Positions 6,231 to 41,092 of a DNA stretch of 43,385 nt are shown one piece after another. The first letter of the stretch is position 1. Every line of letters starts with the position of its first letter. A program made the position numbers and the translations under genes. The notes beneath the pieces are model-generated. The model saw nothing but the letters and a program-made list of their open reading frames with translations, was not told the origin of the DNA and did no database searches. Origin of the DNA: an uncultured Selenomonadales bacterium. Its GTDB lineage: Bacteria > Bacillota > Negativicutes > Selenomonadales > Selenomonadaceae. The stretch lies in the NCBI GenBank assembly GCA_900314765.1, contig OMWN01000101.1, positions 1 through 43,385 of the forward strand, written 5' to 3'.

Positions 6231-6308
6231 ATACAATCTCTCCTAACAAAAATTTATTTATGAAAATTTTACCAAGGGAATACGTCGTTAGTTCTCCATC
6301 CAAAATCA

Positions 6309-6589: not shown

Positions 6590-6805
6590 CCCATTCTCGA
6601 GGGTACATCGATGAAAGAATCAGGCAGTTTTCCTGGCTACAGGTCATCGCTCCATGGCGTCTTCCCAGGGCATGCTCCCTCGTGACAAATGCCATTTCGC
6701 TCGCTGTTACAGTGGCGAGACCGCGCTAGCTTATCTAGCTTTTCTTTTGAGTGCTGGGAAATATCTTCCCATCACACCTAATCCGCTTCAATATTCAATT
6801 CGCTT
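6590..6805 (-). promoter_or_regulatory. cobalamin riboswitch upstream of cbiK
   Basis: Reading the minus strand, the conserved landmarks of the B12 aptamer appear in order: GCCACTG, then CTGGGAAGACGCC, then the B12 box AGCCAGGAAAACTGCC. A terminator follows at 6525-6557, so control is probably by premature termination when adenosylcobalamin is abundant. The aptamer is over 300 nt from cbiK, with two more hairpins in between. Confidence 0.9.
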
Positions 6806-8584: not shown

Positions 8585-8699
8585 AAAAAGCGCCCCCTTA
8601 TACTTTTTACACTTCATGTCAAATATGATACCACAAAATTATTTTACTCATCACAAAATCGATTGAACAAAATTTCTTGCTACACGATTTCATTATAAC

Positions 8700-8727
8700 A
8701 AAAAGAGGCGGCTTTCGCCACCTCTTA
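8700..8727 (-). terminator. terminator between adhesin and transporter genes
   Basis: The minus-strand stem AAGAGGTGGC-GAAA-GCCGCCTCTT is followed by TTTG. Partial termination here would favour the adhesin transcript over the transporter, or the transporter has its own start. Confidence 0.7.
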
Positions 8728-8736
8728 CATATTTCA

Positions 8737-11700
8737 TCATCCGAGCGCGGAAAGATTCACGCCCATGCCCTTCGTCTCTATGCCGATGTTGCCGATATTC
8801 GACGCAACGAGCGCCGCATCATCGAGGCGCGACTCCTCGTCATCGTCGTCATCCTTCGAATTGATCGTGATGCCCGTCGCCGCGGCCTGCTCGCGCTCGT
8901 AGCGCGCAGTCCACGTCTCGGGCTCGCTCATCGCTTCGCCCTCGCCCGCATACGTGTCATACGAGCCACTCTCCGCGTCATACACGCCCGTACTCTCACG
9001 GCTCATGACTCGCGTCGTGCTCATCGTCTCGCTCGGCTCTGTCGCCTCGCTCACAGCCGACATCGTCACTGGCTCCGTCTCGCTCACGCTCGCCGTCGGC
9101 AGTGCCTCGACCGCGCTTGACGATGCCTGTGTGCTCTCTGGCTCCGCCACTGTGCTCGTCATGTAGCGACCCATTCTCACCCTCGGCGTCGTCGTGGACT
9201 CGCTCATATTCGATTCGCTCGATGCGTTTGCTGCCTCGCGCGCCACTGCCTCTGCCTCGTTCGTCGTCACGCCATTGCTCAGCGTGCTGAGGGCGCTGTC
9301 CTCGTCCGCGAACGTCACATTCGACGACGCAATCGAAAGCCTATCGCCATCGACGCTCACAGAGCCACCGACCAGCGTCGGCGCATCCGACTCGACGCCA
9401 ATAGAGCCATCATAGTCGAGCGTTGCCTCATCGCCGAGATTGACGCCGCCATTATGCGCGATGAGATCGATGACAGGCTTCCTGCCGTAGTGCGCCTCAT
9501 CCTCATCATACGAAGCACGGAAATACGACCGATCATCCGGCACGAACCTCGTCGCATCGCGCACCGACTCCTCATAGCGGTCAATCTCATGCTCAGGAAT
9601 ATCCTTGTTCGTGATATCCTTGATGATGTCACTCGGGCGCACTGGCCTGTCGGGATTCACTGGATTTACAGGATGATGCGGATCATCAGGCTTTGCGATT
9701 GTAAGGAAACCATCGCCTAAAACGAAGCGATAATTCTTGTACTCATCGCCGTTCAGTTCAAGACCAGCCTTTGTAACTGGATTCGTTTTTCCAGCATCTT
9801 GCCACGAATAAATTTGATACGTGCCACTAGTGCCGTTCTGTGCTGGAGTCCTATCAGACAAATCATAAGTAAAGTCTCCAAATTTCGCTTTGTCATCGTT
9901 GTAGCCCTTGACAGAGTTCGACAAATCAGAGAAATTGCCCGTAAATTCATAGCTTGGGTCAAGCTTCTGCCCCGCAGGAAGCGAAACATTCACAGGCGTG
10001 ACTACAACAGTCGCCCGCTTGATAGTGCCCTTGCCATCAAACGTTGTTTTGTTAACCACATCATTATCAATCGTGTAGTTATTGTTATTTTCCAATCCAG
10101 TAAGTTTCACATTCGTAAAGTGAACGACCTTATTCGTGCCAGCATTTTTGTCATCGAATGTTCCGTCAGCCGATATGCCGATATGCCCAACGTCGCGATC
10201 AGCCAATCCCTCGAACGTGAGGTTCTTACCTGCCTCGCCAATATCAGCGGTGCCGTCATAAACTTTCGTGACGCTCGCCGTTGAGAGCTTTATCGTCCTC
10301 GGTGTTATGCTGCCTTCGCCTGTGAGTTCCATGAGCAATTTCGACGTTGACGGCGCAAGAAGTGTGGTATCTTTGACAAGCTCAAAGTTTTCGCTGTCAT
10401 ATTTCAGCCTATACGTTACGCCAACGCCATAACCCTTGTCAGCCGCTCCCGCATTATAGTCATCATACGTCGATTTGTCATTATCAAGCGTAGCTATGCT
10501 GACAGTCTGCTCTTTTCCTGCATCATCACTAAACGTGTACAGTATCTTATTGCCAGACGTGCTCACTGTGCCGCCCGTCTTAACAACCAAATCTGCACTC
10601 AAGTTATTCGCGCTGTTGTAGTTCACGCCATCTTTGCTTCCCGTTATGACATTAGTGCCATCATAGACCTTCGTCGGAGCGTTCTTTATATCCACCTTCA
10701 CTTGTCTCGGTGATATTTTTCCTTTTCCTACAAGCGCATCGCCGACAGTGCCATCAGCGTTCTTCACCTTAACTTCGTAGTTGCCACTTCCATCGCCCTT
10801 CAAATTGAAATTCGAATACGTGACGTCCTGCGTCGTTGGATTGCCATTGGAATACTGCACATCTGCCTTATCGTATTGAGCCGTTGGCGCCTTTCCGTTA
10901 TCATAATCAAGCGATATAGTGTTCTTATCTGCTTCATTGACAAATCCCGTCTCCGATTCCGCAGGCTTATCGGTAACAGTGTCATCAAGCCCGACCATTT
11001 CTTTAGGCGCAAAATCATCAAGCACCTTCGTCGTGCCATCATATTGCTTGTCGATGCCTGTCCCTTTGCCATCCTTAAAATCGACATACACCGTGCGCTT
11101 ATTTATCTTGCCATAGACTGTGCCACTGACAGTTCCGCTACCAGCATCTCCCGCAATTTTGTAGTTGCCAGTGTTGTCCTCCGCAGCACTATCTGCCTTT
11201 TGAAGCGTCGCAGTGTACGCAATCGCATTATTCTCATCAACATTTTTATTTTTGTAATTGGTCGTGTACGAGACAATAACATTATCGCCATCAATGATGC
11301 CCGTATTGGTATCGTTGGCAGTATTAATCTTATCTTTCTCTATCGTTTCATACTTGAACCCAGACGTGTCCTTCACTGTGTCAGTGCCATCATACGTCTT
11401 GTCAATGCTCTTATCTGGCAATACAAGATTCACCGTGCGCGGCGTAATGGCAACATTATAGTCAGCTCTCTTTGTATGAGTTAGTTTCTTGCTGTTATAA
11501 CTGTTCAGCAAATTGCTGTTCAAGTCATAATTTTTATTCAGCCCATCCTGCCTGACACTAAGAACATCATACGATACTCCATTCACGTCTTTTACATTCT
11601 TCGTTTCATTGCCGTTGCTATCGATGAATACAGCTTTGCCCACTGTATAGCCTATGTCTATATCCTTGCCATCAACATTCGTTGACAACTTCAGATAGTC

Positions 11701-14700
11701 CTCAGGATTTATCACCTTGCCTTGCGTTGCATCATAGTGCATGACTGACGACGTGCCGTCATATACCTTTGATATATCCTTGTCCCATGTCTCAGTCAAA
11801 GCGGTAGCTGTTATAGCCAGTGGCCTGATATAGCCTTTTTGCGCCGCTTCATCAAAATACACAGTGTCAACCATCGAGGCATTATTGGCATCCATCGTTT
11901 TTGCCGTTGCGCTCTCCACATCTGCTATATAGTAGTTCTTTGCCACATCCCCGCCCGCAGTATTCGACAGCGCAGTCAGTGCGTCATTGAGACCCGTATA
12001 CATGACTGCCTTGTATCCATAATGCGACCCATTCGAATAATCGCCTGCCACTCCATCATTCGTGTCAGCGTTTACATCGTCGCTGGCCTTGAATGCGCCA
12101 GTAGATACATCATATTCGCCATACGTGCCTTTCACATTATTCGTCAAAGCATTGCGCGTATCATCATTAGTCGCGAACTGTACATTTTCGCCGGTCACAA
12201 ATCCTGACAAAGTTACATCAGCATTGCTGAGGTCTACACTTCCATCACCATTCTTAGCGACAGCGGCCGTCGTGTCATTTGGATCATATACTTTATTCAC
12301 CGTACCTATCGTGAGCGTCAGCGGTGCCTTGTTGATGGTTACATTTTTCGCCAAGCCGTCCTTATTTAGTTCATAGTTGCCAGCACTCGCACCAGCCAAC
12401 TTCACATCATCATACGATAAAGCATTTTTATACTCTCCCGCATCCTTTGTGGACGTATTTCCTACATTGCCAGCTATGCTAAGCTTTGTCGCATAATCCT
12501 TATCCACATTGACAACTCCATCGAGGGATATATTGTCCGTGGAAATCCCCAGCACTTTGCCATCATACGTCTTTGTGTACGTGCCATCAGCAAGCGTTAC
12601 CTTATCACCAAGCGCGCCGATGACAGACTTCGCCGTGATGGTCTTCTTTGTGATTGTTCCCGCGCCTTCTGTCGATGTCAACGTATAGTTCCCTGCATCA
12701 TTGCCAGCAAGTTTCACATTCGAATATGTAATCTTCGTAGCGCCGCTATTATCTGTTGCGTTAGCGCTATCGTACGTACCACCATCTGCTGTTATCCAAA
12801 CATTGTCACCGTCATACAGACCGATTGCCTTAAGCGACTTACTGGATATCACATTTTTGTTATCCTCGCTGAGTGCAACAGTGCCATCGTATATCTTGCT
12901 GAGCCCATCAACCGCCGTAATCTCGCCAGTAGTATCATTTTTCGTATTAAATGTGCCAATACTGCCACTTATTTCCTTCGGCGTGATTTTGCCCGTGCCG
13001 TCAAGATGGTCTGTATTGAGCTTATAATTCGCGTTCCCAATCTTGAAAGCATAACGAACGGTCAAACTGTTGTCACCATCGCTTGCGTTCTTCGTCGTCT
13101 CAAATGCATCGCCGTTGACGGTGCCATATTGCGCCCATGTATTTGCGTTCAAACCATCAGCATACGTGAGCCCTGCATCATCGTCAGCGACTAAGCCAGT
13201 ATGCTTTGTGTCATCGGCATCTTCAAAAGCAACAACAGCATTTATATCTTTGCCCGTCGCGTAAATTGTACTGTCATATGTTTTATCGATGTTTGTCTGA
13301 GGCGCGCCATCCTTCCACTTTGCGATGAGTTCGCGCTGCTTTATTGTCGCTTTTTGCGGTGCTGGGGACGTAAGCGTGTAGTTACTCGCTATGTATTTTT
13401 CATTCGCGTCCGTAGTCCCGAGCGTGAAGCCGTCCAGCTTTAAATCATACGTGCCAGCATTGGGGCCGACAGATATATCCGCGCCTGCCATCGTCAGCTT
13501 TCCCTTGTCTTTGTCGACTATATCACTATCATTCAAAGACAATACACTCGCGGCGACAGTAAGCGTGTTTCCGTCGTATATCTTTGTCAGCTTTGTATCA
13601 TCCTTGACAACGGCATTTATGCCTTTTGGCGTAATCGTGCCCGTGCCAGTCGTTGATTCCGCCGTGAATTCATAATTATCCGCAGTCCCGTCGTCGCTAG
13701 TTACTCCAATGTTTTTGTAATAAACCGTGTGGTTTATCGTCCCATGATTTTCTCCCACTAATTGGTTTATGACATTCGCATCATCGTATCTATCAAACTC
13801 GACTTTGGACGTATCTGCTTTAACCTTGCCATTGTCAACGTCCAAGAGTCCGTCAAACGTCATCTCAAAATCTTTTATCGAGCCATTGCCAGCTCCAGTA
13901 TTGCCGTCATACGTTTTTGAATATATTGACGACACTTTGCCCGTCAGCGTCTTCTTCGTGATGGTACCAGTAGTATTCAGATAATCGTTTGAGATGTAGT
14001 AATTGTCATCGACCGTGCCATTATCTGTCAGTGCGAATCCTGTAAGCTGCACATCATGGTTGCCGGCATTTCTATTCCCAGTAATGGATTTCCCGCCATT
14101 AGAAAGCTCGCCGTACGTGCCTTTGATTTGGTCATAGTCCAGCGTCACTGTCTCGACGCTTATGACACCCGTGTCATCACCAGTCGAAGCAGTGTTCAGC
14201 GTAATATAATTCGCCAATGGGCTATTAGCTGAGGTATCTTTCCAGTCGTTGCCATCCTTATCAACGCCAAGGCTCGTCGTGCCATCGTATACCTTGTTGA
14301 TGCCGCCGCCATAATTTAACAAAGCATTATCATTCAGCGTGACATTTAAAGTGCGCTTTAATATATTGCCGCCCGTAGTAATGCCATTCGTAGAGTCATA
14401 CTCTGCATATTGATTCTTTTCTTGTGCGTCCTTATCTGTGGCCACATATAAAGCATAATTGTTATTTGTGTCGCCCTGAATCGAAACTTTATAAGTTATC
14501 GTATTTGTATTGTCATACGTTTGGTTTGGCGTTGCATTTGCATTTTTATCCTTATAGTAAACGCTATCAATACCGACTATGATATCTTTATCATCTCCGA
14601 TAACGCCATCCGCACTCTTCGTAACATCTACAGAAGATGCATACGTGATACCTGCGCGTGCAGCATCAGCAACGGCCTGAGTGCCATCATACACCTTTGT

Positions 14701-17700
14701 CTTTGCTTCGTAATCGTCGAGTGCGACATTGATATGGCGCTTATTGATAGTGCCGTCCGTCGTTGTCTTGGTAATACTTGCACCATCCACCGCCAATGTG
14801 CCGCCATTGACAGTCTTGTTATTCAGCGCACTGATGTCCATATTTTTGACAATATCGTCGTCGAACGTGATTTTATACTTCACGCCCGTGGTTCCAGCGT
14901 CAGTGCCTTCATAGGCAGAATCCTCACTAACAGTGTAGTAAGCGACACCTTTCCCGTTCGTGAGTGTTATGTCCTTACCATTTGATTTTATAGTAATTCC
15001 CTTTATATAGTCAGCAAGATCAGTGACAGCTTTTGTACTGTCTTTCTCCGACGTCGAGTCATAGCTCTTGAGCGAAGCAGTGCCATCATACGTTTTTGTT
15101 GCTTTATACGTTTCAAATTTGAAATCGTCTTCGTCGCCAAGCACAATTTTCTTTATCTCGCCTTTGCCCGTATTAACTTTTGTAATCTTATAATTGTTCG
15201 AGCCATTGAGCAGATTACTATTCGATATATCGTAGGTGACAGTCTTATCCGTCCCGACATTGGCGTCATCGTAGGTTCCAGTTATGTTGCTTTTGCTTGT
15301 TGCATTGCCGCTTGCGTCAGTAATGCCATCCGATTTGAGCAGTTCTATTGTCTTAGTATTTATTGTAGCATCACTGTCTGCGCCAACAATCGACGGAGTA
15401 ATCGCGCTTGCAGCTGTCTCAACGACATCCGCTGTGGTGTCGTATTCTTTTGTCACACCATCAAAATTTACAGCGACATCACGCCTGATTATCTTGCCCT
15501 TTGCGTCAAACGCATTACCCGATATATTTTGCGCTGTATCTTTTGTGACAGTATTTCCATTAATCGTATAGTTCGCAACATCATCGCTGCTAGACAAAGT
15601 CGCATCAAACTTTATGTTCTTGTCTGCTTCCTCGCCATTTACCAGATAAACATTGGCCGCGCCCTCATTATTGGTATTGAGATATTTCCCGCCAAGAGTC
15701 AGCGTGACACCATCATTGTTTGTGACACCCGTCGTAATATTGACATAGTTATTCACATCATCTGTCACATCAGCGGTGCTGTCATACAGTTTGTTTTTGA
15801 CAGTCGCATTATCTTTAGCCGATATTTTAAGGTCACGCTTGTTGATGGTGCCAGATGCGCCCTTGACTTCCGTCGAGTCAGTGCTGCTTATCTTCGTGAG
15901 ATTAGTTTTGTCAAACGTATAATTCTTTACGGCATCTCCCGTCGCCTTAACATACGCCGAGGCATAGTGAGCCGCATTGCCAAGGCCAGACTCTGTCGCA
16001 TCCGACGCTTCTGTTGTGCCTCCTTCATCTTTATAAAACACGCCAGACTGATTCGTATCAAGCGCAAGGCTGAACTTGTCCTTGTCAGAAACAAGCAGTC
16101 CTTCATCGCTCTCCGTGCCATCAGCAATAGTTTTTGTTGTATCTATTGCTACAGTTGCATCCGCTGTAACGTCAGACGTGCCGTCATAAGTTTTCGATAT
16201 GGCAATGATTTCCGACGGATCGATATAGCGGCGCTTGATATTGCCAGTTGTTTCTAGCTCTCCGCTTTCCACATCTTTAGATGAGTCGAAGTTATTTTCA
16301 TCATTCGACTTGTAGTATATCGTATTGCCTTTGCTGTCAACCAGCTGATAGTTGTTGGCGTTATCGCCTGTCAGCTTGAGATTGGTCAGCTTTACAGTAT
16401 AGTCTTCGCCAGCGTCAGAGACAGTATTGCCGTCCTTATAATATGCTCCACTGATTGATGACGACGAATCAAGCTCGACCTTTTCCTTCTCCGTGCTGTT
16501 GCTCGCTGTCTGCACTTCATCCAGCGCCGATGTGATGTTTTTCGTTATTTCATTCTGCAGGCTCGTAATATAAGCATCACGCACGTTGCTCGTGCCGTCG
16601 TAGGTCTTATCCACGCTGTTCGCATTGACATAGATTTTCTTAGGATTAATGACGCCAGTCTCATCAAAGAAAGATTTACCACTCAAGGATGTCGTATCAA
16701 TAACATAATTTTGTGCTGCGGCATCATACTGAGACTTGGTTACAGAGTCATTTGCCTTGTCAAGTGTCCCCGACCCCGTAAGCGATATGGCCACATAATA
16801 CTGATTTCCCGCCGCAGTTCCCGTGGCGTTGACAAGGTCGTCATCCGTCGCGTTGTTGCCCTTTGCGATGTACGCTTCATAATCGGCCTTAGACTTGTAG
16901 TAATAGCCCGTGCCATCAGCCTTTACCTTCAATATATCCTTATCAGCGTCAACGATGCCATTAACGCCCGTGAAAAGATTCGATGCAGTAAATGTATTCG
17001 TGCCGTCATATTCCTTTTCAGCATTTATCGTAGTGTCATTCGTAGACAGAGTAATGCCTTTAGGCGTTATCGTGAAAGCGTCGCCAGCAACATCATATCC
17101 CTGCTGGGTTGATGAAAAGATATAGTATGTCCCCGCATTTTTTGAAGGCAAATTGCCATCACTATATTTATCACTTATGAGGTTGCTGCTTGTATCATAA
17201 TTTGCACCATAAAATTTTACCTTGCTCTCTTCGCTAATGGTTGGCGTCTCGCCATTGTAAACAGCAGTGACATTTCCATTGCGGTCATAGCCAAATCCAT
17301 GTGTGCTATAGTCTTTTAAGGTCTTCTCTGTGCCGATATTATCAGTATTGTGATACGATGAGGCATCTACCTCATTCATGTTCACAGTATAGTCCGCCTG
17401 AACCGTGCCTTTGAAGAAGGCGGTCAAAAGAGGCAGAGTCTTCCCCTCATAAATGCGCCACGTCGGACGATAATATTTACCGCCAGACGTCTTTTGCAGA
17501 CCGCCAGTGTTGGAGATGGACCAGTTACTTCCATCAGATGTATACGGTTTAATATGCTTACTTCCAGTAATTTCCTTTTGTATTCTCGGGACACTTCCAA
17601 CCAGAGAATATGTATACATCTTATCTGTATTTTTATCAACCAAAAAAAATGATGTTCCACTACCTGATGCAGGCGTAACATCAGAAGCTACGCCTATTGC

Positions 17701-19158
17701 TCCCGTAGTGTATGAATTAACTATATTAGAAAAAAAACCACTATCCACTGATTTGACGAAACCATCCATACTACTACTATCCATATCAGAGTAAGAGTTC
17801 TTTATTAGTAACCCCTTTACTCCAATAACATTCCCAACAAAACCTCCTCCAGACGAATTTCCCTTAAAATAAGATGAATCTATCGTTATTGCATTGTCAT
17901 CTGAAGTCCATGCACGGCCTATCAATCCGCCTGTATATTCTTCTACCCCGCTAATACTAGTGTTGCCTTCACTACTCTCAGTAACATACACATTTTTCAA
18001 CTTTACACTTGATGCTGTACCTATAATCGCACCTGCGGGAGTATCTTCGCTACCACCGCTTACACTCAAATCAATCATACCAAGGTTTTCGATAGTTGCA
18101 TTTCCCTCAGCGGTCGCAAAGAGACCTATTCCATTATTTCCCGAACTAATCACAAATTGATTTAGCGTATGATACATACCATCAAATTTACCTGAAAAAC
18201 TCGTATCACCATTTACGATAGAGGTAAATCCAATATCCGATTTATAATCAATATTATCTGCAAGCATGTAATTGCCATTAAGCTTTGTATTGATGTTTTG
18301 AAGGTCTTTTTGACCGTTAACAAGCATATAATCAATAGTTGTCCCACTCGTATTATAACCATTCGATATGGTGCCTGCATGCTCATAATCAGATGTACCA
18401 TCCACACCATTAGGGCTTATATCGTGTCCGATATGTATCTCACCAGCTGTACCGAGCCCATCAGGCAATGCTGTAAGATTGACAGCATTGCCAGTAAGCG
18501 CATTTTTCCCACTGCTATCAAGTATATTAGTAGCATTTTCAAAGCGTATATTATGCCCCTCAACAGTGACAGAGGTTGCACTAATTTTGCCCATATTGAC
18601 AATGTCGCTTGGAGCATAAGTATTAGTATCAATAGTTTTTAATGGACTGCCGCCTGCTTGAAATGCTGTAGTATCCAAATCTTCGAGCGGACGTGTCGAT
18701 ACATAGAGACTACCAACATTGACACTTGAGCCTTCGCCAAAAATCACGCCATTAGGATTGATGAGATAAACATTCTTACCGCCAATAACAGACCCATCTA
18801 TTTGAGAAGTCGCTGCACCATTTACGATATTGAGATAATCTTTTGTCTTAGTGCCACCATCGAATTGTACCTGTTCATTTGAGGCAACCGAAAAATCTAT
18901 CCAATTAAGAACATTTCCTTTATCAGTATTACTGCCTACAATATTTATAGCCTTAGTATACTTATTAGGATCATTAGTTGGATTAATCGGAGTAACGCTT
19001 TCAGGTTTTGGAGCATCAAATGTTGCTCCCGGCATCTGCGTAGGCATAGCAAAGCCGACAGGAGCATAGGCAAACATGCCCGTCATTCCTGCCATGAGCC
19101 CAAGACTAATCTGTGCGGTCAGTTTTCTTGTTTTCTCATCCATTATTGTGCGTGTCAT
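8737..19158 (-). CDS. giant TpsA adhesin with YDG repeats
   Basis: A 3473-residue secreted protein of the filamentous-haemagglutinin class, partner of the TpsB encoded downstream. It has an extended signal peptide (about 1-37), then a TPS secretion domain with the hallmark NPNGVIFG (about residue 130). A beta-helix stretch with GLUG-like repeats (GGLIGRAW, GGGFVG) precedes an MBG-like segment. About 19 repeats of roughly 100-150 residues follow, each opening with a variant of KxYDGT (for example DKTYDGTSN, TKVYDGTNV). A proline-rich linker (HHPVNPVNPDRPVRP) leads to a Ser/Thr/Glu-rich tail with an acidic cluster. I saw no cysteines, as usual for TpsA. Such proteins form long surface fibres for adhesion. 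Start ATG follows AAAGGAT. The frame is uninterrupted. Confidence 0.95.
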   Translation of the reverse strand: MTRTIMDEKTRKLTAQISLGLMAGMTGMFAYAPVGFAMPTQMPGATFDAPKPESVTPINPTNDPNKYTKAINIVGSNTDKGNVLNWIDFSVASNEQVQFDGGTKTKDYLNIVNGAATSQIDGSVIGGKNVYLINPNGVIFGEGSSVNVGSLYVSTRPLEDLDTTAFQAGGSPLKTIDTNTYAPSDIVNMGKISATSVTVEGHNIRFENATNILDSSGKNALTGNAVNLTALPDGLGTAGEIHIGHDISPNGVDGTSDYEHAGTISNGYNTSGTTIDYMLVNGQKDLQNINTKLNGNYMLADNIDYKSDIGFTSIVNGDTSFSGKFDGMYHTLNQFVISSGNNGIGLFATAEGNATIENLGMIDLSVSGGSEDTPAGAIIGTASSVKLKNVYVTESSEGNTSISGVEEYTGGLIGRAWTSDDNAITIDSSYFKGNSSGGGFVGNVIGVKGLLIKNSYSDMDSSSMDGFVKSVDSGFFSNIVNSYTTGAIGVASDVTPASGSGTSFFLVDKNTDKMYTYSLVGSVPRIQKEITGSKHIKPYTSDGSNWSISNTGGLQKTSGGKYYRPTWRIYEGKTLPLLTAFFKGTVQADYTVNMNEVDASSYHNTDNIGTEKTLKDYSTHGFGYDRNGNVTAVYNGETPTISEESKVKFYGANYDTSSNLISDKYSDGNLPSKNAGTYYIFSSTQQGYDVAGDAFTITPKGITLSTNDTTINAEKEYDGTNTFTASNLFTGVNGIVDADKDILKVKADGTGYYYKSKADYEAYIAKGNNATDDDLVNATGTAAGNQYYVAISLTGSGTLDKANDSVTKSQYDAAAQNYVIDTTSLSGKSFFDETGVINPKKIYVNANSVDKTYDGTSNVRDAYITSLQNEITKNITSALDEVQTASNSTEKEKVELDSSSSISGAYYKDGNTVSDAGEDYTVKLTNLKLTGDNANNYQLVDSKGNTIYYKSNDENNFDSSKDVESGELETTGNIKRRYIDPSEIIAISKTYDGTSDVTADATVAIDTTKTIADGTESDEGLLVSDKDKFSLALDTNQSGVFYKDEGGTTEASDATESGLGNAAHYASAYVKATGDAVKNYTFDKTNLTKISSTDSTEVKGASGTINKRDLKISAKDNATVKNKLYDSTADVTDDVNNYVNITTGVTNNDGVTLTLGGKYLNTNNEGAANVYLVNGEEADKNIKFDATLSSSDDVANYTINGNTVTKDTAQNISGNAFDAKGKIIRRDVAVNFDGVTKEYDTTADVVETAASAITPSIVGADSDATINTKTIELLKSDGITDASGNATSKSNITGTYDDANVGTDKTVTYDISNSNLLNGSNNYKITKVNTGKGEIKKIVLGDEDDFKFETYKATKTYDGTASLKSYDSTSEKDSTKAVTDLADYIKGITIKSNGKDITLTNGKGVAYYTVSEDSAYEGTDAGTTGVKYKITFDDDIVKNMDISALNNKTVNGGTLAVDGASITKTTTDGTINKRHINVALDDYEAKTKVYDGTQAVADAARAGITYASSVDVTKSADGVIGDDKDIIVGIDSVYYKDKNANATPNQTYDNTNTITYKVSIQGDTNNNYALYVATDKDAQEKNQYAEYDSTNGITTGGNILKRTLNVTLNDNALLNYGGGINKVYDGTTSLGVDKDGNDWKDTSANSPLANYITLNTASTGDDTGVISVETVTLDYDQIKGTYGELSNGGKSITGNRNAGNHDVQLTGFALTDNGTVDDNYYISNDYLNTTGTITKKTLTGKVSSIYSKTYDGNTGAGNGSIKDFEMTFDGLLDVDNGKVKADTSKVEFDRYDDANVINQLVGENHGTINHTVYYKNIGVTSDDGTADNYEFTAESTTGTGTITPKGINAVVKDDTKLTKIYDGNTLTVAASVLSLNDSDIVDKDKGKLTMAGADISVGPNAGTYDLKLDGFTLGTTDANEKYIASNYTLTSPAPQKATIKQRELIAKWKDGAPQTNIDKTYDSTIYATGKDINAVVAFEDADDTKHTGLVADDDAGLTYADGLNANTWAQYGTVNGDAFETTKNASDGDNSLTVRYAFKIGNANYKLNTDHLDGTGKITPKEISGSIGTFNTKNDTTGEITAVDGLSKIYDGTVALSEDNKNVISSKSLKAIGLYDGDNVWITADGGTYDSANATDNSGATKITYSNVKLAGNDAGNYTLTSTEGAGTITKKTITAKSVIGALGDKVTLADGTYTKTYDGKVLGISTDNISLDGVVNVDKDYATKLSIAGNVGNTSTKDAGEYKNALSYDDVKLAGASAGNYELNKDGLAKNVTINKAPLTLTIGTVNKVYDPNDTTAAVAKNGDGSVDLSNADVTLSGFVTGENVQFATNDDTRNALTNNVKGTYGEYDVSTGAFKASDDVNADTNDGVAGDYSNGSHYGYKAVMYTGLNDALTALSNTAGGDVAKNYYIADVESATAKTMDANNASMVDTVYFDEAAQKGYIRPLAITATALTETWDKDISKVYDGTSSVMHYDATQGKVINPEDYLKLSTNVDGKDIDIGYTVGKAVFIDSNGNETKNVKDVNGVSYDVLSVRQDGLNKNYDLNSNLLNSYNSKKLTHTKRADYNVAITPRTVNLVLPDKSIDKTYDGTDTVKDTSGFKYETIEKDKINTANDTNTGIIDGDNVIVSYTTNYKNKNVDENNAIAYTATLQKADSAAEDNTGNYKIAGDAGSGTVSGTVYGKINKRTVYVDFKDGKGTGIDKQYDGTTKVLDDFAPKEMVGLDDTVTDKPAESETGFVNEADKNTISLDYDNGKAPTAQYDKADVQYSNGNPTTQDVTYSNFNLKGDGSGNYEVKVKNADGTVGDALVGKGKISPRQVKVDIKNAPTKVYDGTNVITGSKDGVNYNSANNLSADLVVKTGGTVSTSGNKILYTFSDDAGKEQTVSIATLDNDKSTYDDYNAGAADKGYGVGVTYRLKYDSENFELVKDTTLLAPSTSKLLMELTGEGSITPRTIKLSTASVTKVYDGTADIGEAGKNLTFEGLADRDVGHIGISADGTFDDKNAGTNKVVHFTNVKLTGLENNNNYTIDNDVVNKTTFDGKGTIKRATVVVTPVNVSLPAGQKLDPSYEFTGNFSDLSNSVKGYNDDKAKFGDFTYDLSDRTPAQNGTSGTYQIYSWQDAGKTNPVTKAGLELNGDEYKNYRFVLGDGFLTIAKPDDPHHPVNPVNPDRPVRPSDIIKDITNKDIPEHEIDRYEESVRDATRFVPDDRSYFRASYDEDEAHYGRKPVIDLIAHNGGVNLGDEATLDYDGSIGVESDAPTLVGGSVSVDGDRLSIASSNVTFADEDSALSTLSNGVTTNEAEAVAREAANASSESNMSESTTTPRVRMGRYMTSTVAEPESTQASSSAVEALPTASVSETEPVTMSAVSEATEPSETMSTTRVMSRESTGVYDAESGSYDTYAGEGEAMSEPETWTARYEREQAAATGITINSKDDDDDEESRLDDAALVASNIGNIGIETKGMGVNLSALG

Positions 19159-19356: not shown

Positions 19357-20778
19357 TTACTGGAGCAGGCTCAGCACTGAGCTGCTGTTTTGGTTTGCCT
19401 GAGCAAGCATGCTCTGGCTCGCTTGCTCGAGCACGTTCATCTTCGTATACTCTGTCATGCTCGCCGCCATGTCAGCATCACGGATGACACTCTCGCTTGC
19501 CTGCGTGTTGTCACGTGCCGTCATGATGTTCGCGCTCGTGTAGCCGAGACGGCTCTCCACCGAGCCAATCTCCGTTGCTTGGTCAAGCGCTTTCTGAAGT
19601 GCAGTCTCAACGACGTTGATGGCAGCATTTGCAGCCTGCTGGCTTGTAGCAACGGTCTTTGGGTCTAAAAGAGAATACTCACCCGTTGCTGATTTTTTCT
19701 GTCCGCCAACATTAAGGTATCCGCCTAAATTATCTTTAAGCCCAAGCGCATACGAGCGCATATCTGTAAGGCCAATTTTAACGGAGCGATTCGCTCTGGT
19801 ACCCGTTTGAAGAACTATCGCATTATCCGGTGATGGATTCTGAGCACGTATTACCTCTTGAAAATTATCAAGCACAGTATTAGCGCTACGGCGAAACTCT
19901 CCGTACCTATCCGTAACGCTTATCGTAAGACCTGAAATCTGGCCTTCGATTCCCGGCCTTGTTGCCTTATATGCTATCGCATTAGCATGATCAGGAGTAT
20001 AAACCTCATTACCGTATTGATCTTTTCCCAAATAAGAAAAATCCTGTGACTGTATCTTACCCCATTTCCCGTAAGTTACCTTCCCCTTCGAAACCTCAAC
20101 ATCGCCTTTATCTCCGTTGACCAAAAGATCTTCCAATTTAAGTTTCTTACCTTTTTCATCAACGACTGGAAAGTCCTTTACATAAGTAATGCCTTGCTTA
20201 ACATAAGAGACCGTAACCCTATCACTTGAAAGTATGCCCAAACTTGTTCCATTATGGTCTTTCAAATCAAGCAATGTTGTTTTAGTAGTAGTTTCACTAT
20301 TGAAGCTTGTATTGACAAGCGTCGTATACGTGCCTGGGTCGAGCACCGTATTATTATGCGAGCCGTCAAGAAGCATCTTGCCGTTGTAGGTCTGCTGTGC
20401 GTTGTAGTCTATCTGGTCGCACATCTGGTCAAACTCACGTTGTATGGTCTCGCGATCCTGCTCTGTGTTCGTGTCGTTCGCTGCATTGATGAGCTTTTCT
20501 TTCATCGTACGAAGAAGTTCTATCGTGTTGTTGACAGCGCCCTCTGCTACCTTGAGCATGGAGTTGCCATTCTCGGTGTTCATGTTGTCCTGATCGAGCG
20601 AACGAATCTGAACACGCATTTTCTCTGATATGGAGAGGCCAGACGCATCGTCAGCCGCGCTGTTGATGCGCATGCCCGATGAGAGCTCAGCCAGCTTCTT
20701 CGACTTTGCCTTCGTATTCTTATTGAGCTGGTTCAGCGTGTTCGTTGCTGACGTGTTGTTCTTTATAACCAATGCCAT
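19357..20778 (-). CDS. fliC: flagellin
   Basis: A 473-residue flagellar filament subunit. The conserved D0/D1 N-terminus shows LNKNTKAKSKKLAELSSG and SAADDASGLSISEKMRVQIR. The C-terminus shows AxNVVETALQKALDQ, RLGYTSANI and ends NQNSSSVLSLLQ. The middle (about residues 140-370) is a variable surface domain. No cleaved signal: it is exported by the flagellar type III apparatus. The ATG follows GGGAGG with 8-nt spacing. The gene is monocistronic with its own terminator and a sigma-28-like promoter. No other flagellar genes lie in the window. Confidence 0.97.
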   Translation of the reverse strand: MALVIKNNTSATNTLNQLNKNTKAKSKKLAELSSGMRINSAADDASGLSISEKMRVQIRSLDQDNMNTENGNSMLKVAEGAVNNTIELLRTMKEKLINAANDTNTEQDRETIQREFDQMCDQIDYNAQQTYNGKMLLDGSHNNTVLDPGTYTTLVNTSFNSETTTKTTLLDLKDHNGTSLGILSSDRVTVSYVKQGITYVKDFPVVDEKGKKLKLEDLLVNGDKGDVEVSKGKVTYGKWGKIQSQDFSYLGKDQYGNEVYTPDHANAIAYKATRPGIEGQISGLTISVTDRYGEFRRSANTVLDNFQEVIRAQNPSPDNAIVLQTGTRANRSVKIGLTDMRSYALGLKDNLGGYLNVGGQKKSATGEYSLLDPKTVATSQQAANAAINVVETALQKALDQATEIGSVESRLGYTSANIMTARDNTQASESVIRDADMAASMTEYTKMNVLEQASQSMLAQANQNSSSVLSLLQ

Positions 20779-25090: not shown

Positions 25091-25381
25091 ACCCTCTCCG
25101 CCTCGCATTCGCTCGCGCAAACATGCCACTGGCATGTTTGCCCCCCATTGGGGAGGCTGGCTCCACAGATTCTGTGATTATTTACTTTAGCTGAAATCGA
25201 CTAGTTGCTCTGTCTGTAAAGTGAATGGCTGATGTTTATTTTTTACAACATCGTAAAACAGTAGCCCTACTTGCCTACCAGTAAATTGAAGGACTGTCAT
25301 TCACTTTCGATTACATCGTAAAGCATCGCTTTCGCTATGCCTCCCACTCTGGGGGAGGTGCCCCGCAGGGGCGGAGAGGGT
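25091..25381. repeat. MITE-like element, copy 2
   Basis: Starts ACCCTCTCCGCCTCGCATTC, ends GGCGGAGAGGGT, with inner palindromes at both ends (CATGCCACTGGCATG is extra here). The right half (from ACTGTCATTC through CATCGCTTTCGCTATGCC) matches copies 1 and 5. Together with the hairpin at 25410-25558 it accounts for the 577-bp gap between floA and the next gene. No gene seen inside. Confidence 0.85.
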
Positions 25382-29580: not shown

Positions 29581-29841
29581 GACCCTCTCCGCCCCCTGCG
29601 GGGGCACCTCCCCCAGAGTGGGAGGCATAGGATGAAAGTCTTGAGGCATAAAACTTTACGAATGAATGAAACATTTTACACTTTCATTAGGCGATTGTTT
29701 AGCTAAATTAAGTGTCTCACATTTTCGCATGTAGATTATTTGCCTGTGTAGATTTTCAACTAGTGTAAATAATCACAGCGTCTGTGACGCCAGCCTCCCA
29801 CTCTGGGGGAGGTGCCGAGCGAATGCGAGGCGGAGAGGGTC
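29581..29841. repeat. MITE-like element, copy 3
   Basis: Starts GACCCTCTCCGCCCCCTGCG and ends GGCGGAGAGGGTC, with the inner CCTCCCCCAGAGTGGGAGG palindromes intact at both ends. Its left flank (GAGTTTTTGCAA) mirrors the right flanks of copies 2 and 4, so the true ends may extend further. It separates prmA from rsmE and fills the 305-bp gap between them. Confidence 0.87.
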
Positions 29842-29857
29842 GGCATTTATCGCGTAT

Positions 29858-30814
29858 TCACTGCCGCTCTATAATCATCATAACCCAGTCTTTATCCTCT
29901 TGCTGCTCCGTTATTTTGTAGCCGTGCTTTTCTGCCGCGTCTTTTACTTCATCGGCGCGCGATGTGATGATGCCGCTCGCGAGGAGCTTTCCGCCCGCGG
30001 CGAGGTGCGCCGATAGTCCATTTTCGCCATTATCTTCATCAAACAGCCTTATGATAAGGTCGGCTATCAGATTCGCCGTGATGAGCATCACTTTTTTGTC
30101 TGCCGCGACATTTTTGAGCAAATCGCTCGCGCCTGTCTTCACGACGCCCGCCACGCCGTTCTGCTCGACATTTTCACGCGCCACCTTCACGGCGGTCTCG
30201 CTGTAGTCGACCGCCGTCACACGCGACGCGCCGAGCTTCGCTGCGGCGATCGCGAGCACGCCCGAGCCCGTGCCGATGTCTATCGTCTCCATGTCGGGCT
30301 TCACGAGCCGCTCGAGCGCGCGCAGGCACATTGCCGTCGTCGGGTGCGTGCCCGTGCCAAAAGCCGCACCTGGGTCGAGGCGCAGCACGATTTCACCATC
30401 ATTCGCCTCGTAGCTCTCCCACGTCGGCACGATGACGATGCGCTCGCCGATTTTCTCCGTGTGGAAATATTTCTTCCACTCATTCGCCCAGTCCTCGTCA
30501 TCCACCTCACGCTTCCAGAGATCAGCGGGCGACGTGTCAACGCCATTACGAAGGAGCCTCAGCATGCCGACACGAATCGTGTCGATTTTACCCGTGAGAC
30601 TATCATCCATCGGCAGATACGACTTGACCGTCACGAATGTCGCATCTCGCCGCTCCGTCATATCCTTAAAATCCCATTTGCCCGAGCGAATATATTCATT
30701 CACGAGCGCGGGGTCATCCATCACTACGCCCGACGCGCCGACATCCTCCATGAGCGACGCCACGAGGTCCATCGCCTCATGAGACGTGCGCACGCTCACC
30801 TCTGCCCATTTCAT
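29858..30814 (-). CDS. prmA: ribosomal protein L11 methyltransferase
   Basis: A 318-residue SAM-dependent methyltransferase that trimethylates L11. An N-terminal substrate-recognition domain is followed by the Rossmann domain with DIGTGSGVLAIAAAKLGA, and by TANLIADLI at the active site. PGAAFGTGTHPTT is a strong family marker. Its start overlaps the stop of the diguanylate cyclase gene by 4 bp (ATGA), so both are translationally coupled. Confidence 0.96.
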   Translation of the reverse strand: MKWAEVSVRTSHEAMDLVASLMEDVGASGVVMDDPALVNEYIRSGKWDFKDMTERRDATFVTVKSYLPMDDSLTGKIDTIRVGMLRLLRNGVDTSPADLWKREVDDEDWANEWKKYFHTEKIGERIVIVPTWESYEANDGEIVLRLDPGAAFGTGTHPTTAMCLRALERLVKPDMETIDIGTGSGVLAIAAAKLGASRVTAVDYSETAVKVARENVEQNGVAGVVKTGASDLLKNVAADKKVMLITANLIADLIIRLFDEDNGENGLSAHLAAGGKLLASGIITSRADEVKDAAEKHGYKITEQQEDKDWVMMIIERQ

Positions 30815-32205
30815 CGTCTTCTGCCCTCTTCCTCATAGTATAGCTGCTTGTCCGTGTACATGCGCGCATCGGCGAGCGCCACCGTCTGCTGCATCGTCTG
30901 CTTCGTTCCGTCGCTCCACGCATAGCCGACCGACACCGACAGCGCCGGCAGCGTATCGATGTAGCTCATCGCCTTTGCGAGCCGCGCCGTAAACTGCGTC
31001 TTCGGCATGTCAAAGCATATCACGACGAACTCGTCGCCGCCCGTCCTGTATATCTCGGGCTTTCTGTAGAAAAGCGCAATCGTCTCGGCGAGGTCGATGA
31101 TGAGCCTGTCGCCCGCGCGGTGCCCTTCGCTGTCATTGACTCGCTTGAGACCATTCAGGTCGAAATAAATCACGCCGACAGGCTTTTTGTCCTTGTCGAT
31201 GATTTTCTGGTCGCGCTCGATGTCGCGGATGAACGCGTTGCGATTGGCGACGCCCGTCATTTCATCGAAATAGCTCGCTTTCTCAAGGAGCTTCCTGTTC
31301 GTGTCGGCCACGATCGACGCCGATATGAAATACGAGAGCGTCAGCATCATCATCGACGCACTGTCGAAATCATCGGGCTCGATGTTGATAATGCTGAGGA
31401 GCGCGACGATTTTGCCGCCTACCTGTATCGGGGCGACGACGCAGTTTTTGCACCCCTGCGCCGTCATGGAGTCATACTCATCCTTATGAATTTCCTTGAG
31501 CAGATTCACGTCGCGGATTTTCACATTGTTATAATGTTCAAATATGTCAAACCACCGTATGAATTTGCTTTTGGGCACGGACTCCGCCATGTCCATGAGC
31601 CTCGTGACGCCCGCCGGCACCCACTCATTCGTCATGGCCAGCGTGTCGTCCTTTACGTCGGTGATGCAGCAGTGATCCGCGCGGAAATAGAGGCCGATAT
31701 GCTCGAGCATTTTGTCGAACGCCACATTTAGGTCCGTCTCCGAATAAAGAATCTGCACCGTCTCATTGAGCACGGCCTCCGCCTGAAGTGTCTTCTGAAG
31801 GTTCTCACGCTGTCTCACGGATTCAGTCACATCGACGACAACCTCGACACACGCGTCATGGCCTTTGTACCGTATCGGCGAATCAAAAGCCTGAAACATC
31901 CTTTTGAGATACGCATTGTACCCCTCGCCCATCCATTTGCCGTGCTCCGTCATGCGCTGCGGACACTGCTCGCACTGCTTGTCCTTTTTTTGGAGCACCT
32001 CGTAGCATTTCCTGCCGATGTAGTCAGTCTCCGTGATGCCAAGCGCCTCACGCCCAACACGGTTGACGAAAAGCAGCTCGTCGGTATCCCTGTCCATGAC
32101 GTAGATGATCATGCCGAGCTCGTCAAATATGCTGAGGTCCGTATATTCAGCGCGTTCATTTTGTTCCGTATTTTCTTTTTCGATGCCTTCATTGCTTTCG
32201 AGCAT
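30811..32205 (-). CDS. PAS-GAF-GGDEF diguanylate cyclase
   Basis: A 464-residue cytoplasmic signalling protein with no membrane segment. An N-terminal PAS-like sensor (about 25-130, with a cysteine pair CEQCPQR) precedes a GAF-like domain (about 145-295). The catalytic GGDEF domain has the intact active site TGGDEFVVI. I see no RxxD inhibitory site just before the GGDEF motif, so product inhibition may be absent. It should make cyclic di-GMP, which commonly opposes motility and promotes surface adhesins; both traits are represented in this window. It is coupled to prmA by a 4-bp overlap. Confidence 0.92.
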   Translation of the reverse strand: MLESNEGIEKENTEQNERAEYTDLSIFDELGMIIYVMDRDTDELLFVNRVGREALGITETDYIGRKCYEVLQKKDKQCEQCPQRMTEHGKWMGEGYNAYLKRMFQAFDSPIRYKGHDACVEVVVDVTESVRQRENLQKTLQAEAVLNETVQILYSETDLNVAFDKMLEHIGLYFRADHCCITDVKDDTLAMTNEWVPAGVTRLMDMAESVPKSKFIRWFDIFEHYNNVKIRDVNLLKEIHKDEYDSMTAQGCKNCVVAPIQVGGKIVALLSIINIEPDDFDSASMMMLTLSYFISASIVADTNRKLLEKASYFDEMTGVANRNAFIRDIERDQKIIDKDKKPVGVIYFDLNGLKRVNDSEGHRAGDRLIIDLAETIALFYRKPEIYRTGGDEFVVICFDMPKTQFTARLAKAMSYIDTLPALSVSVGYAWSDGTKQTMQQTVALADARMYTDKQLYYEEEGRRR

Positions 32206-32232: not shown

Positions 32233-33612
32233 TCATACGGTTTCTTTTTCCTCTTTTTCCAGTGCCAGCGCGGCCTGCACCATGATGGCGCACTCGAGGC
32301 GCTTTTTCTGGATGGCGCATCCGACCTCGTACGGCTCGCGGATGTCGCCGTGGAACAAATCCGCATTCGCGTGGCAACCACCGCTGCAGAAAAATCTTGC
32401 CCAGCAATCGCGGCACTTCTCCTTGTTGAGCACATGAGACTCCCTGAAATATTTTGGCCAATGATTGTCCGTCACGCCCTCGAACACGGAGCCCAATCGA
32501 TATTTCTCGCGGCCAACAAACTGATGGCACGGATAGAGGTCGCCATTCGCCGCGACGGCCATGTATTCGTGACCCGCGCCGCAGCCCGCGAGGCGCTTCG
32601 CGACGCACGGCCCATTCGAAAGGTCCATATTGAAATGGAAGAAGAAAAAGCCGCGACCTTCCCTCTGGCGCTTGAGATACGCGTCAACGAGGCGATCGTA
32701 TTCCTCGTACACGCGCGGGAGATCCGACTCCTCGATGCCATACGGCGCGTCCTTCGCGACGACGGGCTCGATGGAGAGAATGTCAAATCCCGCGTCCGCC
32801 ATCGAAAGCACGTCCTTCGTAAAATCGAGATTATACTTCGTATATGTGCCGCGCAGATAATAGTTGTCGCCGCCGCGTGAATCGACGAGCGCCTTGAAAT
32901 TCTTGAGCACCCTGTCATACGTGCCATTGCCGCCCGCGTCTGGGCGCATGCGGTCGTGCGTCTCCTTGCGGCCATCGAGCGACAGCACGAGGCTGATGTT
33001 GTTGTCGTTGAAAAATTTGCGATTTTCCTCATTTAAAAGGAGGCCGTTCGTCGTGAGCGTCAGCTTGAATTTCTTGCCCGTCGTCTTTTCTTTCGCGCGA
33101 ATGTACTCCGTCAGATGGCGCACGACCGGCATATTCACGAGTGGCTCGCCGCCGAAAAAGTCAATCTCCGAGTGAATACGCGGCCCCATGTGCTCTATGA
33201 GGTAGTCCACGGCACGCTCGCCGACCTCATTCGTCATGAGCTCTCGCCCGCCGCCGAATTCACCCGTGTCGGCGAAGCAATATTTGCAGCGCAGATTGCA
33301 GTCATGTGCGACCATGAGGCAGAGGGACTTCACGATGCCGACCTCCGCGAACGTCGGCGGCACATCGATGTCCGGCGCGAAAAGCTCATTCGCGTCCATT
33401 AGCTCATGAAGCTCAGCGAGCGACTCGCGGAGCTCCGCCTCGTCATATTTATCTTTAAACGCCGCGACGACAGCGTCATCGTTCTTGCCGTCGAAGACGT
33501 CCATCATGTCATAAATCATCTTGTCGATGACATGCACCGCGCCGCTGTTCACGTCGAGCAATATGTACATGCCATTCTGTACGAACTTGTGGATTTTGTT
33601 ATTAGCCTGCAT
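32233..33612 (-). CDS. cteB: SCIFF thioether-forming radical SAM maturase CteB
   Basis: A 459-residue radical-SAM/SPASM enzyme that installs a Cys-Thr thioether in the SCIFF peptide. An N-terminal peptide-recognition domain (about 1-95) is followed by the radical-SAM triad CNLRCKYC, the FFGGEPLVN motif, and a SPASM region with auxiliary-cluster cysteines: CGAGHEYMAVAANGDLYPC, CRDCWARFFCSGGC, and a final C-x(8)-C pair (CAIQKKRLEC). It is about 30 residues shorter than, or equal to, typical family length. The precursor gene cteA lies upstream on the same strand, separated by a repeat element. ATG 33612 was chosen; a TTG one codon earlier is possible. Confidence 0.93.
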   Translation of the reverse strand: MQANNKIHKFVQNGMYILLDVNSGAVHVIDKMIYDMMDVFDGKNDDAVVAAFKDKYDEAELRESLAELHELMDANELFAPDIDVPPTFAEVGIVKSLCLMVAHDCNLRCKYCFADTGEFGGGRELMTNEVGERAVDYLIEHMGPRIHSEIDFFGGEPLVNMPVVRHLTEYIRAKEKTTGKKFKLTLTTNGLLLNEENRKFFNDNNISLVLSLDGRKETHDRMRPDAGGNGTYDRVLKNFKALVDSRGGDNYYLRGTYTKYNLDFTKDVLSMADAGFDILSIEPVVAKDAPYGIEESDLPRVYEEYDRLVDAYLKRQREGRGFFFFHFNMDLSNGPCVAKRLAGCGAGHEYMAVAANGDLYPCHQFVGREKYRLGSVFEGVTDNHWPKYFRESHVLNKEKCRDCWARFFCSGGCHANADLFHGDIREPYEVGCAIQKKRLECAIMVQAALALEKEEKETV

Positions 33613-33708
33613 CAAAAATAGTGACCCCTATGATTTTATTTTTGTGGTGAGTTTGTGAGTTTGTAAAACTTATGTCCAGTTTCTGCTTAATAATACAGCG
33701 ACGAGATA

Positions 33709-33909
33709 ACCCTCTCCGCCTCGCATTCGCTCGGCACCTCCCCCATATGGGGAGGCTGGATTTACAGATTCTGGAAACATTTAAATTAGCTGAACAATCG
33801 ACTAATGGAAGCGTGAAGTCTTTTATCCTACCGTCTCAGTTCTAAGCATTAAGTCTCTCTTACTTTGCCTCCCACCATGGGGGAGGTGCCCCGCAGGGGC
33901 GGAGAGGGT
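33709..33909. repeat. MITE-like element, copy 4, inside the cteA-cteB gap
   Basis: Starts ACCCTCTCCGCCTCGCATTC, ends GGCGGAGAGGGT, about 201 bp, the shortest complete copy. Inner palindromes are CCTCCCCCATATGGGGAGG and CCTCCCACCATGGGGGAGG. It fills most of the 360-bp gap between precursor and maturase genes. Confidence 0.87.
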
Positions 33910-33926
33910 CTTTTCAAACTCATTCC

Positions 33927-33961
33927 AAATAAAAATGGGTGTCACCGAATGGCAACACCCA
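33927..33961 (-). terminator. terminator or attenuator after cteA
   Basis: The minus-strand stem TGGGTGTTGCC / GGTGACACCCA is followed by TTTTTATTT. It would give more precursor than maturase transcript. Confidence 0.75.
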
Positions 33962-33973
33962 CGATAATCATTC

Positions 33974-34120
33974 TTACCTGCCGCCGTGCTCGCATACCTG
34001 GTTGCCAACAGTGCAGGATGTCTTGCACGCGGACTGGCATGAAGCCTGGCACTCGCCGCAGCCGCCTTTGCCGATTGTGCTCTGGAGATTTGGCTTGTTC
34101 ACTGTTTTGATATGTTTCAT
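33974..34120 (-). CDS. cteA: SCIFF RiPP precursor peptide (six cysteines)
   Basis: A 48-residue peptide: leader MKHIKTVNKPNLQSTIGKGG followed by a core with cysteines at 21, 24, 28, 32, 36 and 43. This is the exact plan of SCIFF (six cysteines in forty-five residues), nearly universal in Clostridia. In Clostridium thermocellum CteA the thioether joins Cys32 to Thr37; here residue 32 is Cys and 37 is Thr. The ATG follows GGGGGGAAC, with an excellent promoter upstream. Its maturase cteB lies downstream. The biological role of mature SCIFF is not known. Confidence 0.95.
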   Translation of the reverse strand: MKHIKTVNKPNLQSTIGKGGCGECQASCQSACKTSCTVGNQVCEHGGR

Positions 34121-34187
34121 TATTCAGTTCCCCCCGTCAGATAAATGTTTCTTCTACAAATGCTACTTTAATGTAAATCACATCTCT

Positions 34188-34342: not shown

Positions 34343-35623
34343 TTATTTCGCGAGCCGCTCAAGCGCCCTGTGCGCAATGTCGTGGCGATAATGAACGCCG
34401 TCGAAATGAATCTTCTTAACGCCCGCATACGCCTTGTCGATTGCGCCCTTGATGTCGTCGGCCTCTGCCACGACGCCGAGCACGCGGCCACCATTCGTCA
34501 CGAGCTTTCCGCCGTCTTCCTTCGTGCCCGCATGGACGACGAGTGCGCCGAGTGCCTCAGCGTCCTCGATGCCCGTGATTTCCTTGCCCTTCTCGTAGTG
34601 CTCAGGATAGCCGCCCGACGCCATGATGACGCATGCCGCCGCGCCGTCCGACCACTCGATTTTCTGCTCGCTGAGCGTGCCGTCGATGCACGCGAGCATG
34701 ATGTCAACGATGTCGCTCTTGAGGAGCGGCAGCACGACCTGCGTCTCCGGGTCGCCGAAGCGCGCGTTGAACTCGACGACTTTCGGCCCTTTCGCCGTGA
34801 TCATGAGCCCCGCATAGAGGCATCCCTTATATGGATGGCCTTCCTTCTTCATGCCCTCGATGACGGGCACGAGGATTTCTTTTTTGACGCGCTCCATCAT
34901 CTCCGGCGTCATGACAGGCGCAGGAGCATAAGCGCCCATGCCGCCCGTGTTGAGTCCCTCGTCGCCGTCGTTCACGCGCTTGTGGTCCTGCGACGACACC
35001 ATCGGCACGATTGTCTCGCCGTCGGTGAAGCAGAGGACGGACGCCTCCTCGCCCTCCATGAATTCCTCGATGACGATGCTCTTGCCCGCGTCGCCAAACG
35101 CCTTGTCCTGCATGATGGTGTCGATTGCGTCAATCGCCTCATCGACCGTCTTCGTGAGAATGACGCCCTTGCCCGCCGCGAGGCCGTCCGCCTTTATCGC
35201 GAATGGCTGACGCATCTGACGCACATAGACGTGCGCGCGGCCGATGTTGTTGAACGTCTCGCTCTTCGCCGTCGGTATGCCGTAGCGGCGCATGATGACC
35301 TTCGAGTACACCTTCGAGCCCTCGAGCATCGCCGCGTCCTTCGACGGACCAAACGCCTTTATGCCCGCCGCAGTGAGCGCATCGACGACGCCGTTCACGA
35401 GCGGCACCTCCGGTCCCACGACGACGAGGTCGATATTTTTCTCCTGCGCGAGCTTCACGATTGCGTCATTGTCCTCGATGTCGACGCCCGCGACACACTC
35501 CGCATATTTTTTCATGCCAGGATTGCCCGGCACCGCGTAGATTTTCTCCGCCTTTGGGCTTTGGCTGATTTTCCAGACGAGCGTGTGCTCACGGCCGCCG
35601 CTCCCCAGTACCATTATATTCAT
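34343..35623 (-). CDS. purD: phosphoribosylamine-glycine ligase
   Basis: A 426-residue ATP-grasp enzyme that makes GAR, the second step of purine synthesis. N-terminal [20 protein letters not shown]-grasp region [18 protein letters not shown], and metal-site [17 protein letters not shown] are all present. Normal length. It is the last gene of the purine operon and overlaps the purH stop by 4 bp. Confidence 0.97.
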
Positions 35624-36216
35624 TTGCTGATCTGCTCCTTCAAATATTTCTGTATGCAGTCATCGTACTCAGCCGTGTGCTGGAATGCCTCCTGCGCGAG
35701 CTCCATGCGCATCATGCCGCTCGTCGTGCCGTCCTTGAGTATCGCGTCGGCCACCTCGTCATAGCGGCTCGGGTTCGTCACGACCGTCACGTAGCGGAAA
35801 TTTTTCGCCGCCGCGCGTATCATCGCAGGGCCGCCGATGTCGATGTTCTCGATGGCCTCGGAGAGCGTGACATTCTCCTTTGCGATTGTCTCGCGGAATG
35901 GATAGAGATTGCAGACGACGAGATCAATCGGCGTGATCTTGTGCTCCTTCATCTGCTGCACGTGCTCCGGATTGTCGCGCACGGCGAGAATGCCGCCGTG
36001 GATGTACGGATTGAGCGTCTTCACGCGGCCGTCCATGATTTCAGGAAATCCCGTGACGTCCGAGACGTAGAGCACAGGGATGCCCGCGTCCTGTATCGTG
36101 CGCATCGTGCCGCCCGTCGAAACAATCTCGACGCCCGTAGCCTGCAGCTTTTTCGCGAACGCGACGATGCCCGTCTTGTCCGACACGCTCAAAAGTGCCC
36201 GTTTTATTTTCATCAT
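35620..36216 (-). CDS. purH: standalone IMP cyclohydrolase (N-terminal half of PurH)
   Basis: A 198-residue protein that matches only the MGS-like IMP cyclohydrolase domain of Pur[49 protein letters not shown] and [17 protein letters not shown]. The usual bifunctional protein has about 510 residues, with a C-terminal AICAR transformylase. Here the frame ends cleanly and purD begins in overlap, so this is a natural single-domain protein rather than a damaged gene. FAICAR synthesis must come from elsewhere (a separate AICAR formyltransferase or PurP-type enzyme). Start ATG follows AGGGGGAAT; the next codon is also ATG. Confidence 0.93.
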
Positions 36217-40989: not shown

Positions 40990-41092
40990 TTGAAATGAAG
41001 GACAGTTGTTCGCTATCAATTATATCGTTAAGCACTGCTTTCGCTATGCCTCCCACTCTGGGGGAGGTGCCCCCGCAGGGGGCGGAGAGGGT
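40990..41092. repeat. MITE-like element, copy 5 (right half only)
   Basis: The right end is intact: GAAGGACAGT through CTGCTTTCGCTATGCC and the CCTCCCACTCTGGGGGAGG palindrome to GGCGGAGAGGGT. No matching left end is visible before it, so this is a half copy or a diverged one. The 430-bp gap between purE and 41195 otherwise holds only the purE promoter and leader and the terminator at 41149. Confidence 0.75.

Follow-up and report, generated by a model that had tools for sequence, protein, structure and literature searches.

SCIFF has been treated as a ranthipeptide system of the Clostridia (PMC8326336; PMC8172795), and the locus described here raises the question of how a SCIFF precursor gene, scfA, and a maturase gene, scfB, come to lie in a genome of another class. 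The window, that is, the whole stretch of 43,385 nucleotides that was analysed, is one entire contig of a 2.33-Mb genome in 103 contigs that is 98% complete and 0.07% contaminated. The host genome belongs to the Selenomonadaceae, so the "probable Negativicute" of the initial annotation stands. The contig is collinear with a congener (G001) on both flanks of the gene pair (purM to purD; prmA-rsmE-mtaB-HIT, with floA further on) and is therefore not a contaminant. BamA-like matches to TIGR03303 are present in the host genome and, together with two-partner secretion genes in the window, are consistent with a diderm envelope. The latter encode a ShlB/FhaC-type transporter (6899-8617) and a 3473-aa filamentous-haemagglutinin-like exoprotein (8737-19158), adjoined by a flagellin gene (19357-20778). 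The outer-membrane system beside which SCIFF had been placed thus exists (6899-19158), but is located ~13 kb away and is unrelated to it.

The precursor gene, scfA (33974-34120, minus strand), encodes the 48-aa peptide MKHIKTVNKPNLQSTIGKGGCGECQASCQSACKTSCTVGNQVCEHGGR, which in profile searches exceeds the cut-offs of both TIGR03973 (86.6 bits, E 7e-25; cut-off 50) and PF13165 (87.4 bits; cut-off 27). The leader, MKHIKTVNKPNLQSTIGKGG, is followed by a Cys-rich core that begins at Cys21. As is characteristic of SCIFF precursors, ScfA has six Cys within ~45 residues (21, 24, 28, 32, 36, and 43), including Cys32, together with an acceptor Thr; Thr34 and Thr37 are both present. A GGGGGG sequence is found at 34130-34135, upstream of the ATG. 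Such a small precursor is readily overlooked, and each ScfA is expected to be accompanied by a ScfB (PMC5300114). The companion gene, scfB (32233-33612, minus strand), encodes a CteB-type radical SAM/SPASM SCIFF maturase of 459 aa, counted from ATG, that scores 611 bits against TIGR03974 (E 1e-183; cut-off 425). The listed reading frame (32233-33615, minus strand) has a TTG start; the ATG at 33612, one codon downstream, is the more natural choice, and an AGGGG sequence is kept upstream of the start. Among solved structures, ScfB is closest to CteB (5WGG/5WHY; E 3e-158), and because the match spans residues 6-448, the RRE, the radical SAM core, and the SPASM domain are all present. In ATG numbering, the CxxxCxxC motif comprises C105, C109, and C112, and the eight SPASM/auxiliary Cys are 336, 344, 362, 400, 403, 409, 413, and 432. 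All eleven are invariant in twelve ScfB proteins and align with the cluster Cys of 5WGG, in agreement with the earlier statement that every cluster motif is kept. The two genes are on the same strand, about 360 bp apart, and hence within the 500 bp taken as adjacency (PMC5300114). With three profile models exceeded (TIGR03973, PF13165, and TIGR03974), the precursor and maturase noted at 32233-34120 are confirmed; the description of the system as complete holds for these two genes and does not extend to a protease or exporter, as no gene for either adjoins the pair.

The best explanation of the locus is almost certainly an intact SCIFF ranthipeptide system that has been vertically inherited within the Negativicutes. 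Observed here, and underlying this reading, are the family membership of both genes, their intact motifs, the joint presence of scfA and scfB, descent at the level of the group, and the anatomy of a terminator.

The terminator belongs to an intergenic region with two structured elements. First, directly 3´ of scfA, an intrinsic-terminator-like hairpin with a U tract (33928-33962, minus strand) is found by RNA folding; it has a 12-bp stem, an AUUC loop, and then AUUUUUAUUU (-23.6 kcal/mol, z -3.0, for the fold of 33920-33985). A hairpin with a T run occurs at this position in 28 of the 30 loci examined from Negativicutes, the majority of them from Selenomonadaceae, against ~0.5 expected from shuffles, and in 30 of 65 loci from outside the class, against ~0.9 expected. 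The window's own hairpin escaped the automated survey because its stem includes two G-U pairs. Second, a MITE-like palindromic repeat without assigned strand (33709-33909) forms a strain-specific insertion between scfA and scfB, with ends, set from ~20 copies, reading ACCCTCTCCG and CGGAGAGGGT. It is multicopy, with 57 matching pieces genome-wide, many of them full-length at 71-85% identity, and as RNA would form a very stable hairpin of ~200 nt (MFE -92 kcal/mol, z -6.8). A search of congener G001 gave no match to the element, and it is absent from the scfA-scfB spacers of the measured family relatives, which are 69-179 nt long, against 379 nt in the window. Inspection by eye revealed no evident target-site duplication. 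The repeat family is ~190-290 bp in length, with further copies having both ends at ~4802-5059, 25091-25381, and 29582-29840 of the window and a right end by itself at 41083-41092; matches in family members are confined to the terminal arms and to a few genomes (e.g., G014 and G025).

In this strain, the repeat might reduce the expression of scfB or eliminate it. In the extreme case, its insertion and the downstream position of scfB would have silenced the maturase gene, leaving a decaying remnant in this genome, and the separation of scfB from scfA by a stable element of ~200 nt on top of a terminator speaks for such an outcome. However, both reading frames are intact with all motifs kept, AGGGG is retained before scfB, and a terminator is found at the same place in many family members that retain scfB, which makes silencing improbable.

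Downstream of scfB, after a gap of 27 nt, is a gene for a PAS-GAF-GGDEF diguanylate cyclase (30811-32205, minus strand; matches to PF00990, PF01590, and PF13426) with an intact GGDEF motif. It sits between scfB and prmA. The congener locus is otherwise collinear but lacks this gene, as do most loci of the family; the cyclase is therefore not a SCIFF component, and was rejected as a conserved partner. No Rfam element is found near scfA-scfB. Rfam matches elsewhere in the window are restricted to a tRNA, a T-box leader (3989-4217, minus strand) that precedes a gene (2017-3936) for a class II (threonyl-type) tRNA synthetase, and a cobalamin riboswitch (6606-6796, minus strand) that precedes a gene (5220-6236) for a CbiK cobalt chelatase.

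SCIFF is near-universal in the sampled Negativicutes. Among 60 relatives from the same genus, family, and class, scfA exceeds its cut-off in 55 and scfB in 54, with a 55th scfB genome (G056) counted in which the match is cut off near a contig end. The two genes are present or absent jointly in all 60. Both are missing from G002, G028, G031, G033, and G054, and in the case of G028, which is 93% complete, this may be a real loss. scfA is found in 49 of the 50 good-quality relatives and in 21 of the 22 sampled families; named carriers of the pair include Selenomonas, Anaerovibrio, Veillonella, Megasphaera, and Acidaminococcus. Across the phylum, sampled evenly (299 genomes), scfA was detected in 243 genomes and scfB over its cut-off in 235, and a single genome (G135) was found to have a strong scfB match (E <1e-100) without scfA. 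No scfA was found in 14 control genomes. In BiG-SLiCE, 80.5% of SCIFF clusters come from Clostridia and 99.3% from Firmicutes overall (PMC7804863), shares that leave room for SCIFF in other classes. A sactipeptide-like radical SAM cluster with increased transcription below pH 5.5 was described in Veillonella parvula in a 2018 oral-biofilm paper (PMC6284299); we infer that it corresponds to scfA-scfB, because the Veillonella loci examined here carry the pair.

Among named relatives, the window ScfB is closest to proteins from Selenomonadaceae and from further Negativicutes (Anaerovibrio, Selenomonas ruminantium, S. montiformis, Megasphaera, Allisonella, Acidaminococcus, and Veillonella). In a careful tree of 62 sequences, the Negativicutes are grouped with support of 91/86 and in 88% of bootstrap trees, and in a larger tree, built from 125 ScfB and three outgroup maturases (128 sequences), the 46 Negativicutes fall on one side of a branch with SH-aLRT 85. 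Support for a single grouping of the Negativicutes proteins is moderate, not full. SCIFF may be older than the split of the classes or may have entered the ancestor of the Negativicutes by ancient transfer. A recent transfer of scfA-scfB into this lineage from Clostridia might be suspected from the GC content of ranthipeptide clusters, which in BiG-FAM hints at some transfer (PMC7778980), and from the flanking genes, which are not conserved between genera. Against this, the window ScfB is placed beside that of the congener (87% identity), nested within its family and then within the Negativicutes, the best matches from Clostridia are only ~52% identical, and the order purM-purN-purH N-terminal part-purD-scfA-scfB-prmA-rsmE-mtaB is shared with the congener. 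The trees and the synteny thus lead us to reject recent transfer, one of the outcomes that the initial annotation had named as refuting, as highly improbable. As an aside on this flank, the PurH-like protein (35620-36216, 198 aa) has the MGS (IMP cyclohydrolase) domain and the first 59 AICARFT profile positions only, and so lacks a complete transformylase domain; this reading frame is shared by the congener at 89% identity.

Near-universal in the class and inherited within it, SCIFF is to be expected in this genome. The pair is already known in kind, its presence is ordinary, and curated models recognise both genes. The initial observation is consequently confirmed, and the significance claimed for it is not supported: with 55 of the 60 relatives carrying the pair and the ScfB of the Negativicutes forming one group instead of a branch within the Clostridia, the proposal that its location here bears on SCIFF history finds no support.

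Several known systems are close to that of the window. CteA/CteB from Clostridium thermocellum (thermocellin; 5WGG, 5WHY) has the six-Cys precursor, the MKHI leader, and Cys32, Thr34, and Thr37 in common with the window pair, and CteB has the same RRE, radical SAM core, SPASM domain, and cluster Cys; the differences are the diderm Negativicute host and the leader-to-core residues, which are unlike those of CteA. Tte1186a/Tte1186 from Caldanaerobacter subterraneus is likewise a SCIFF pair, whereas the host is a clostridial thermophile. Closer still are the loci of Selenomonas, Anaerovibrio, Veillonella, Megasphaera, and Acidaminococcus (L104-L120), from the same class and with the same pair, order, and core SCQSACKTSCT, although with different neighbours and, in the measured family spacers, without the repeat. 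PapA/PapB (freyrasin) and QhpD represent related radical SAM maturases of non-alpha thioethers that differ in acting on Cys-X3-Asp targets with beta-thioethers or on protein substrates. That the window protein is instead a related orphan maturase of the not_ScfB, PapB, or QhpD type, acting on a different substrate, has next to no probability, since its scores against NF040492 (not_ScfB; 545 bits) and the PapB and QhpD models are all below their own cut-offs (855, 340, and 453), whereas TIGR03974 is well exceeded and scfA adjoins the gene.

For an intact SCIFF system, the chemistry of the window pair would be that of the studied homologues. The leader (MKHIKTVN...) would be bound by the N-terminal RRE domain of ScfB, the radical cluster would, with SAM, abstract a hydrogen from a core Thr, and the thiolate of Cys32, held by a SPASM cluster that has a free coordination site, would attack to form a gamma-thioether (-2 Da). 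Which Thr is the acceptor is disputed. The initial annotation had pointed to Cys32 and Thr37 as the residues joined in CteA; both are present in ScfA, and a Cys32-Thr37 thioether was, according to the sources cited, first shown in vitro for Tte1186a (PMC8326336) and also found for CteA in vitro (reviewed in PMC8326336; PMC8172795). The same reviews give Cys32-Thr34, linked via the gamma carbon, as the product of CteA and CteB co-expressed in E. coli. We gathered 151 distinct precursors with a pattern that fixes neither Thr. The core CQSACKTSCT is nearly frozen among them. Thr34 is found in all 151, including all 50 from Negativicutes, while Thr37 is found in 144 and replaced by Gly in seven, none of them from Negativicutes (CKTSCGV or CKTSCGI; loci L026, L027, L030, L031, L032, L172, and L174). 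An intact ScfB frame is present at most of the Gly37 loci. Because it is invariant, Thr34 would be the likelier physiological acceptor; natural variation favours it over Thr37 without amounting to proof. The Gly37 variants offer cheap material for testing the two alternatives.

Expression stoichiometry and biological role can be inferred only. The terminator hairpin would let only part of transcription through to scfB, and ScfA would be made in excess because the hairpin limits transcription into the maturase gene; more precursor than enzyme is thus the likely outcome. Such an imbalance is common among RiPPs. Export by a C39 peptidase transporter acting at a double glycine was considered and rejected, as no match to the C39 peptidase (PF03412) was found in the host genome (98% complete), and Gly19-Gly20 of ScfA is accordingly not evidence for this type of export here. 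The product most likely would not be an antibiotic but would serve a conserved function in housekeeping or signalling, as argued by a core that is near-frozen in two classes. This is in line with the quorum-sensing role reported in solventogenic clostridia (Chen et al. 2020, as cited in PMC8326336 and PMC7778980), a report that also tempers the earlier description of the role as unknown. A bolder proposition, that Thr34 and not Thr37 is the general SCIFF acceptor and that SCIFF, near-universal in a diderm class, is a housekeeping peptide that is not exported, is tentative and in its entirety rather unlikely.

In conclusion, SCIFF is no less typical of Negativicutes than it is of Clostridia, and the surprise at finding it here traces to the "Clostridia" label of the literature. 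Negativicutes that have really lost SCIFF, as G028 may have, could help to find genes that disappeared jointly with it. Given that SCIFF is typical of this class, any account of its function must hold for bacteria with an outer membrane.
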